From positions 1 to 33,114 of the forward strand of contig JAEEJM010000038.1 of the NCBI GenBank assembly GCA_016281895.1: 33,114 nt of DNA, given 5' to 3'. The notes under the pieces are model-generated. The model was not told the origin of the DNA. It saw only the letters and a program-made list of their open reading frames with translations, and did not search any database. This DNA is from Clostridiales bacterium (GTDB lineage Bacteria; Bacillota; Clostridia; Oscillospirales; CAG-272). Shown one piece after another: positions 2,138-18,017 of this stretch. The position numbers and the translations under genes were made by a program. The stretch's first letter is position 1; every line of letters starts with the position of its first letter.

Positions 2138-3114
2138 GCGGCGACGTCAGAGAGAGGATACTGGACAGCATAGCCGGGCACCGTACCGTGATCATCTCCC
2201 GCCACACGAGGCCCGACGGGGACGCCGTAGGTTCCACGCTCGGCCTGGCCGCGGCGCTGCGGCTGTCGTTCCCGGACAAGAGGATACTGCTCGACAACGC
2301 CGACCGCGCGGACTACCTGGCGTTCCTCGGCGACGAGACCTCCAGCCCGTCCGACGGCGACTACTCCGGGGCGCTGGTCATCGTGCTCGACACAGCCACC
2401 GAGGCCAGGATCTCCGGCGACCGCTTCCGCAGGGGGGACATGCTGGTCAAGATCGACCACCATCCTAACCTCGAGCCTTACGGGGATATAAACTGGGTGG
2501 AGGACGGACGGTCCTCGACCTGCGAGATGATAGCCGACCTGTGCCTGTCGTTCCCGGGCGTTCTGAAACTCGACCGCAGGGCCGCCTCGTGCCTCTACAC
2601 GGGCATGGTGACCGATTCGGGCAGATTCCGCTACAGGGAGGTCTCGCCCGGCACGCTTCGTACGGCCGCCGCGCTGCTGGAATTCGGTGTCGACACCGAG
2701 CGCCTGTTCGCCGAGCTTTATTCCGAGAGCTTTCAGGTGCTGAGGTTCCGGGCCGAGCTGACCCGCAGGATCAGGCTCACTCCGGCCGGGGTCGCATGGA
2801 TCAAGATAACGTCGGCCTTCCGAGAAAAGCGCGGGATAAGCCTCGAGGAGGCCAGCAACACGGTCGGCATTATGGACGCCATACGCGGGAGCCTCATATG
2901 GCTGGTCTTCGTCGAGAACGGCGACGGCAGCATCCGCGTGAGGCTGCGCTCGCGCTTCGTGGAGGTCGAGCGGCTTGCCGCGGCCTACGGAGGCGGAGGT
3001 CACGCCTGCGCCTGCGGGGCGACCGTGCACAGCGTCGGTGAGCAGAAGGCGCTCCTGGCCGACGCGGACGCCCTGCTTGCCGGGTTCAAAAAAGAGCACC
3101 CGGAACTGTTCTGA
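2134..3114 (+). CDS. DHH/DHHA1 family phosphoesterase, second tandem paralog
   Basis: SRHTRPDGDAVGS, IDHH and YGGGGHACACG motifs; 4-nt ATGA overlap with the preceding CDS. Confidence 0.88.
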   Translation: MSGDVRERILDSIAGHRTVIISRHTRPDGDAVGSTLGLAAALRLSFPDKRILLDNADRADYLAFLGDETSSPSDGDYSGALVIVLDTATEARISGDRFRRGDMLVKIDHHPNLEPYGDINWVEDGRSSTCEMIADLCLSFPGVLKLDRRAASCLYTGMVTDSGRFRYREVSPGTLRTAAALLEFGVDTERLFAELYSESFQVLRFRAELTRRIRLTPAGVAWIKITSAFREKRGISLEEASNTVGIMDAIRGSLIWLVFVENGDGSIRVRLRSRFVEVERLAAAYGGGGHACACGATVHSVGEQKALLADADALLAGFKKEHPELF

Positions 3115-17602: not shown

Positions 17603-17679
17603 GCCTGTGTAGCTCAGCAGGATAGAGCGACCGCCTCCTAAGCGGTAGGCCAGCGGTTCGAATCCGCTCACGGGTGCCA
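17603..17679 (+). tRNA. tRNA-Arg (anticodon CCT)
   Basis: Cloverleaf readable by eye: acceptor GCCTGTG/CACGGGT, D-arm GCTC..GAGC, anticodon stem ACCGC-CTCCTAA-GCGGT, T-arm AGCGG-TTCGAAT-CCGCT, encoded CCA. Confidence 0.92.
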
Positions 17680-17720
17680 TGAAAGAAACCTGATTTGTCT
17701 ACCAAATCAGGTTTCTTTCA
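17680..17720 (+). terminator. Perfect 18-bp hairpin immediately after tRNA-Arg (terminator or processing structure)
   Basis: TGAAAGAAACCTGATTTG-TCTAC-CAAATCAGGTTTCTTTCA. Confidence 0.75.
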
Positions 17721-17722
17721 AC

Positions 17723-17899
17723 TAAGTGTTCCGCTGACGCGGAACGTGAAGTGAGGCTGCGCCTCGTGAAGCGCGCTACGCGCGTGAAGTGTGCCTTCGG
17801 CACGATGCGGAACACTTAACTTCACTTTGCGGCAACGCCGCAATACTTCACTGTGAGCGAAGCGAACTACTTCACTTGCCCGCAAGGGCAAACTTCACT
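17723..17899. repeat. Array of short palindromic cores separated by a constant GTGAAGT / ACTTCAC spacer
   Basis: GTTCCGC-TGAC-GCGGAAC, GAGGC-TGC-GCCTC, GCGCG-CTA-CGCGC, GTGCC-TTC-GGCAC, TTGCGGC-AAC-GCCGCAA, a degenerate core, TTGCCC-GCAA-GGGCAA; spacers are GTGAAG(T) x3, then ACTTCACT x4. Confidence 0.9.
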
Positions 17900-18017
17900 G
17901 AAAGGGAACGACTATGCAGGAATGGTATTCAATATGAATAACGCAGAAAGGGTCATGCCGACTCACATTTTTGGCGTTCTTTCTATGGTCTATGTATCAT
18001 TATGGCGCTCTTAGACA

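Follow-up and report, generated by a model that had tools for sequence, protein, structure and literature searches.

A hairpin-spaced inverted word array after a tRNA-Arg gene, probably a decayed copy of a dispersed S23/IVP-linked mobile element

The array at the tRNA-Arg locus and its relation to Gut-1

The window, i.e. the whole stretch of 33,114 nucleotides from a Clostridiales bacterium (CAG-272) that was analysed, contains an intergenic array downstream of a tRNA-Arg gene, in which copies of a constant word, GTGAAG(T), alternate with short hairpin cores (Table 1). A previous sequence-only reading had described seven self-complementary cores of unrelated sequence, separated by a word that is forward in the left half and reversed in the right half. 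The forward GTGAAG words are located on the + strand exactly as described, and the reverse words (ACTTCACT) start at 17819, 17845, 17869, and 17892, placing the complement of GTGAAG at 17820, 17846, 17870, and 17893. All seven cores are present as well, the sixth (GTGAGCGAAGCGAACT) being imperfectly palindromic, and words are spaced by 18–26 nt with the hairpins in between. The 12-bp inverted repeat reported to enclose the left half (TAAGTGTTCCGC/GCGGAACACTTA) is perfect, with arms 72 nt apart. The last 7 nt of arm A also pair locally with 17739–17745, forming core 0, and arm A' is the centre, at which the words switch orientation. The coordinates given in that reading (17723–17899) hold, but the feature starts earlier, with a perfect palindrome that directly follows the tRNA.

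Table 1. Features of the tRNA-Arg locus in the window.
Feature	Position	Strand	Source
tRNA-Arg (anticodon CCT), CCA-ended	17603..17679	+	ARAGORN, Rfam tRNA
Leading palindrome, perfect, 18-bp arms, 5-nt loop, terminator-like	17680..17720	.	sequence
Left half, Gut-1-like (RF01706), words GTGAAG(T) at 17746, 17766, 17784	17719..17795	+	cmscan
Arm A of long-range 12-bp inverted repeat, TAAGTGTTCCGC	17723..17734	+	sequence
Hairpin core 1, GAGGC tgc GCCTC	17753..17765	.	sequence
Hairpin core 2, CGCGCTACGCGC, stem extends into G of next word	17772..17783	.	sequence
Hairpin core 3, GTGCC ttc GGCAC	17791..17803	.	sequence
Arm A', GCGGAACACTTA, pairs with 17723-17734	17807..17818	+	sequence
Right half, inverted Gut-1-like copy, words ACTTCACT and cores 4-6	17814..17900	-	cmscan
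Hairpin core 4, TTGCGGC aac GCCGCAA	17827..17843	.	sequence
Hairpin core 5, GTGAGCGAAGCGAACT, imperfect	17853..17868	.	sequence
Hairpin core 6, TGCCC gcaa GGGCA	17877..17890	.	sequence
Truncated S23/IVP gene start: ATG CAG GAA, deletion, stop after 7 codons	17914..17937	+	
Remnant of element 3' part, TATGTATCATT.. CTTAGACAGC common to C46 copy	17938..18013	+	alignment

GTGAAG occurs 28 times in the window, vs 14.4 ± 4.3 in dinucleotide shuffles, and seven of these occurrences fall in ∼150 bp. With DNA parameters, the single-strand fold of the array reaches −50.3 kcal/mol, vs −31.5 ± 3.4 for shuffled sequences (z = −5.5, with 0 of 200 as good), and RNA parameters give z = −4.5. Pairing between forward and reverse words, which the earlier reading had considered feasible, is possible in both folds. 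A broken frame (ATGCAGGAA) starts 14 bp past the end of the array.

A DNA search of the genome of origin (G000) identified one further full copy, on contig C46, plus one fragment. The C46 copy, which is 89% identical to the array in the window across ∼210 bp, sits after a tRNA-Ser and runs on into a frame matching the Pfam family 23S_rRNA_IVP (PF05635; 46.1 bits, E 6.5e-12, residues 5–66). Both copies share the array and the IVP start, and differ in their palindromes. In the C46 copy 64 aligned IVP codons are kept; in the window the gene is nearly all gone, with its first codons and 3' scraps remaining, the latter weakly similar to C46 except for their final ∼30 nt. Because its IVP gene is broken, the copy in the window is best seen as what remains of an element or as a derivative consisting of the array alone. 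The earlier reading had overlooked the linked tRNA, the S23/IVP gene, and the dispersed nature of the whole element. In our view, the array probably represents a degenerate member of a dispersed family of IVP-linked mobile elements.

The array had been thought to match no standard element. This is not supported, since each half matches Gut-1 (RF01706), an orphan Rfam family, one on the + strand and the other on the − strand. In a cmscan search of 251 bases, the left half scored 43.9 bits (E 9.5e-8) and the right half 36.5 bits (E 7.1e-6), both under the gathering score of 50. Both halves nevertheless align across the full 77-nt model (positions 1–77), with its architecture of words and three hairpins. 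Sister arrays in the same genome score 74.9 and 69.2 bits, above gathering, and Gut-1 in arrays of relatives reaches this score as well; the array is thus not unique to its locus. In the sister arrays the left half matches Gut-1 on the + strand, and some right halves do so on the − strand. Gut-1 is above the cut-off in 52 of 147 genomes of the order. Among 92 Gut-1 hits in three genomes, there are 32 pairs in the order + then − within 60 bp and 0 pairs in the order − then +, indicating that Gut-1 commonly, if not always, makes up half of an inverted module. Gut-1 stems from a 2010 motif screen, which proposed it as a noncoding RNA of the human gut only, without gene association (PMC2864571). 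It resembles each half of the array in having words (GUGAAAU) parted by three hairpins. However, the family is given in Rfam as a single-strand RNA from gut metagenomes only, whereas Gut-1 is here half of an inverted pair that forms part of an IVP-linked element downstream of tRNAs, the copy in the window being sub-threshold.

IVP genes and word arrays in gut Clostridia

The genus encodes 28 PF05635 genes in 9 of its 13 genomes, and visual inspection of their flanks reveals such arrays in most. Two designs are seen: words with hairpin cores, and plain tandem words, forward and reverse, without cores. A pattern search of the genus for GTGAAG-N-GTGAAG proved too narrow, being tied to this one word, and also picked up coding hits. 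We extended the survey to other gut Clostridia using the 80 IVP loci most closely related to a single query alignment; these loci represent one part of the IVP family, and the genomes are mostly MAGs. In 73 of the 80 loci, the best 7-mer is found at least five times in the 400 bp upstream of the gene, vs 1 of 80 when the highest value from 40 dinucleotide shuffles is taken. The suspicion voiced earlier that similar arrays exist in gut Clostridia was therefore well founded: they are common there. Forward copies precede reverse copies nearly always, the commonest layout being four forward and four reverse words. Words are uniform inside an element and different between elements. As in the window, where arm A, part of the first hairpin, has a second partner in an extended central A', the same A/A' layout is readable in many elements.

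The cores between the words are highly variable in sequence and self-complementary. A stem score of at least 4 was obtained for 66% of 467 inter-word cores, vs 7% of shuffled cores. In 50 arrays with four reverse words, cores 4–6 have 43 distinct sequences out of 50 each. When arrays of equal geometry were compared, ignoring kinship, changes on both sides that keep the pair numbered 207, 194, and 214 for cores 4, 5, and 6, respectively, vs 48, 63, and 50 that break it. Such compensatory changes support the earlier proposal: a design in which the spacer stays constant and the cores vary but always remain self-complementary is conserved. Wobble is rare. Among ∼1,900 stem cells there are 17 G-T and 8 A-C in gene orientation, singling out neither strand; in terminators, the same count for comparison gives 31 to 18.

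These properties bear on the possibility that the array acts as a structured noncoding RNA, transcribed by read-through from the tRNA, folded through its hairpins and word-word pairing, and either bound by IVP or acting alone. Gut-1 is an RNA in Rfam, as originally proposed, the RNA fold is significant, the cores covary, and tRNA promoters lie upstream. However, the tRNA and the array are separated by a palindrome that resembles a terminator and has A and T tracts, the stems are almost purely Watson-Crick, and inverted halves made of the same word are better suited to a double-stranded site. In addition, a TATAAT-like box is found between the array and IVP in 56 of 84 loci. We consider the RNA explanation unlikely, and favour the reading of the array as part of a mobile element.

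Word type tracks the IVP tree, with 13 changes vs 36.5 in shuffles (minimum 30). Because array and IVP are adjacent, this agreement is explicable by linkage alone and is no proof of binding. A search of full-text literature, preprints and most subscription journals being outside it, returned no link of S23/IVP to hairpin arrays, heptamers, or Gut-1.

Several loci show further arrangements. After guaA, upstream of an IVP gene at 3001 (L145), part of the array has been amplified approximately fourfold as a ∼98-bp tandem unit. Two units lie in tandem after a tRNA in G006:C96 (L043/L048), the first consisting of array, IVP, and a DUF218 gene, the second of an array with another word, a promoter, and a membrane protein gene, with no IVP. 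A shared tail resembling a tRNA T-arm (GTAAGAGTTCGAATTCATACGCAAAA..) follows the IVP-less arrays of L244, L245, L247, L248, L250, and L264, and is present twice in L247, after tandem arrays. The hairpin form of the IVP element also occurs on two fecal phage contigs.

Site preference, passenger genes, and presence or absence of the element

In 52 of 76 loci, a same-strand tRNA or tmRNA, of many isotypes, is found within 600 bp upstream of IVP, most often 205–285 bp from the IVP start. In nearly all of these tRNA/tmRNA-linked loci, a palindrome (GAAAAAAGC..GCTTTTTTC) starts right at the CCA and the array comes next. Similarly, when the top Gut-1 locus of each genome was considered, a tRNA end was found ∼30–40 nt ahead of the motif in 18 of 30. 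No IVP gene was detectable in the stretch examined in 28 of these 30 loci, which indicates that IVP is not needed in each copy; array-only copies without IVP are common, in many places.

Orthologous sites with and without the element were found, the comparisons being between species rather than strains. One such site lies between a lipoprotein gene and a TPP riboswitch: it is filled with array, IVP, and reverse array in four genomes of the genus, whereas G006 and G009 have a short intergenic stretch without the element. The four filled sites use four different words (GTGATGATC, GTTAAGATC, AATGATGATC, and ATGGTTATC), the reverse complement of which recurs, whole or in part, beyond the IVP gene, so that the words are coherent on both sides. 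At a tRNA-Leu site, G038 carries palindrome, array, IVP, and an acetyltransferase gene. In G060 the palindrome is another one, accompanied by an incomplete array and a MazG-like gene, and G061 has no element. The flanks of G038 and G060 cease to align at most about one base from the CCA. At the tRNA-Arg site of the window, orthologs without the element have other terminators after the CCA. The leading palindrome in the window is nearly the same as the one after tRNA-Leu in G038, where it stands beside a different array. Palindrome and array are thus exchangeable separately, and the left boundary is not fixed. A similar MazG-like passenger follows the array in L217 and L110, in one genome at a tRNA-Leu without IVP and in another genome at a tRNA-Glu with IVP. 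From the dispersed near-identical copies, and from orthologous sites that either have or lack the element, we infer that it is mobile.

Could the arrays instead be passive repeats, with slippage and correction of palindromes making and keeping hairpins and words, and ordinary recombination spreading them, without any function? Near-perfect palindromes can result from template switching, and an array segment has been tandemly amplified in L145. Slippage, however, fails to explain why the same words flank a gene in inverted orientation, why words at an orthologous site change coherently, why tRNA 3' ends are preferred, or why IVP is linked. We regard this scenario as very improbable.

Passenger genes are often tightly coupled to IVP. 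In 29 of 65 scored loci, the start of the next, co-oriented frame overlaps the IVP stop by exactly four bases (ATGA). Fifty-three following frames, not all of them tightly coupled, match 53 Pfam families, acetyltransferases most often, and some more distant ones are resident genes, e.g. fmt and pnp in the genus. Comparison of the passengers with a library of defence genes gave scattered single hits and no defence theme. The last reverse word often adjoins the −35 region of the IVP promoter (L085, L092, and L195). This proximity and the ATGA coupling would suit words that are only operators of an IVP-passenger operon, bound by IVP or another protein, with no role in movement. Against this stand the many array-only copies without IVP and the riboswitch-site elements, in which arrays lie both before and after the IVP gene. 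Moreover, seven hairpins and a location next to tRNA 3' ends are more than a simple operator calls for. A purely regulatory role therefore seems improbable to us, and we retain the mobile element as the preferred reading.

Comparison with known systems and possible action of the array

The protein family of the element, PF05635, is that of the intervening sequences (IVS) of 23S rRNA, which have been described as parasitic elements with complementary sequences at their borders (PMC4990558). An S23/IVP gene is present in the element, truncated in the window and scoring 46.1 bits in the C46 copy. Unlike IVS, however, the element lies outside rRNA genes, at tRNA 3' ends, has passenger genes, and is bordered by word arrays with hairpins; there is no rRNA match in the window, where the array is intergenic after tRNA-Arg rather than within 23S or 16S.

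REP/BIME/REPIN sequences have a short constant foot word beside a hairpin, form inverted pairs, and are intergenic with many copies. The array resembles REP/RAYT systems in its constant word, hairpins, and inverted pairs, but has many different stems per array, eight words, and IVP as the linked gene. The Y1 (HUH) transposase PF01797 was absent from G000 and G058, with one weak match in G175, these genomes being 86–97% complete. As no Y1 transposase was found in the genome of the window, nor in G058 with its 51 Gut-1 hits, we dropped a REP/BIME assignment with RAYT. Reverse transcriptase (PF00078) was absent from G058 (86% complete) and G175, and occurs once in G000 (L320, G000:C92:3665-4291, the single such domain of this genome). 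Because neither enzyme was found in G058, both are poor candidates for the mover. No recombinase was found linked to the element.

Integron cassettes share with the element a structured palindromic site, diverse promoter-poor passenger genes, and in places tandem units, but the element has no single platform, uses sites at many tRNAs, and carries the IVP gene inside the unit. The attC/integron assignment was dropped, and we take the architecture of the array to be unlike that of attC. CRISPR was discarded as well, the array spacers being palindromic, the repeat flipping orientation, and CRISPR repeat hits being at chance level only; a simple terminator was likewise considered and set aside. 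The cyanobacterial STRR/TAACTGA heptamers are tandem repeats with no known mobiliser, described with no mention of S23/IVP (PMC4679880). The array differs from the STRR type, in which heptamers stand head to tail without spacers, since the words in the window are 18–26 nt apart with hairpins in between.

On plasmids of Nostoc, Dolichospermum, Euhalothece, Treponema, and Monoglobus, too, most IVP genes are flanked by a short word that is in forward orientation upstream of the gene and reversed downstream of it. Word counts are above shuffles in about two-thirds of 15 plasmid loci and weak in the others. Tandem-word flanks are found on cyanobacterial and Treponema plasmids (L227, L228, L232, L233, and L234–L243); in L227 the word is AAGTCGC/GCGACTT, with 29 copies downstream. 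Like STRR/TAACTGA arrays, IVP genes on Nostoc and other plasmids thus lie among short words, here forward and reverse. In contrast to the array in the window, the cyanobacterial words have no hairpin cores between them, and the link to IVP is an observation of the present analysis. Such flanking words may have given rise to some of the cyanobacterial STRR heptamers.

An intact element consists of a palindrome, a forward word array, the central A', a reverse word array, the S23/IVP gene, and often a passenger, with hairpin cores in the arrays. It sits directly 3' of a tRNA, a tmRNA, or another transcription unit and brings along its own terminator-like palindrome. Because words stay identical while cores drift, the word should be either what a trans factor reads or a sequence that must pair with every other word. 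The inverted arrangement favours a double-stranded site, or a duplex between the halves, over a single-stranded site. IVP is the natural candidate reader, being the sole recurrent gene of the element and having a tree that word type follows. The S23/IVP family has been reported to form a toroidal homopentamer of unknown function (PMC4990558), and the solved relatives 2rld and 2gsc contain five chains per entry. Several identical words opposite a ring of identical subunits would be in keeping with multivalent binding, and we propose the constant word as a candidate binding site of the IVP ring. We put recognition of the word by IVP forward as a hypothesis with nearly even prospects; pairing between words is another way in which the inverted words could be kept identical. 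The hairpins might only serve to present or space the words, and therefore be free to drift as long as they are palindromic. The whole inverted array might serve as a cis-acting end or recognition region for copying or moving the element, with IVP and host functions acting on it, including in trans on array-only copies.

More tentatively, these loci may represent a new class of small mobile elements in several phyla, combining an IVP ring with its own inverted short-word arrays, which in gut Clostridia would be hairpin-spaced, placed at tRNA 3' ends, and equipped with passengers, with no linked transposase, integrase, or reverse transcriptase. If so, the Gut-1 RNA, S23/IVP genes that stand alone, and some of the cyanobacterial heptamer arrays would all belong to one system. 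The element brings together three orphans: a Gut-1 "RNA" unexplained since 2010, S23/IVP pentamers of no known function, and short-word repeats of no known mechanism. The orphan motif and the orphan protein gain a common context, in which each is now testable. If the element is mobile, gut Clostridia would have a dispersal system for passenger genes that standard annotation has missed, and the coherent change of all words per element offers a natural experiment on the co-evolution of a repeat and its recogniser. On one Nostoc plasmid (L241, 677–1033), an IVP gene is inserted between cas2 and cas1.
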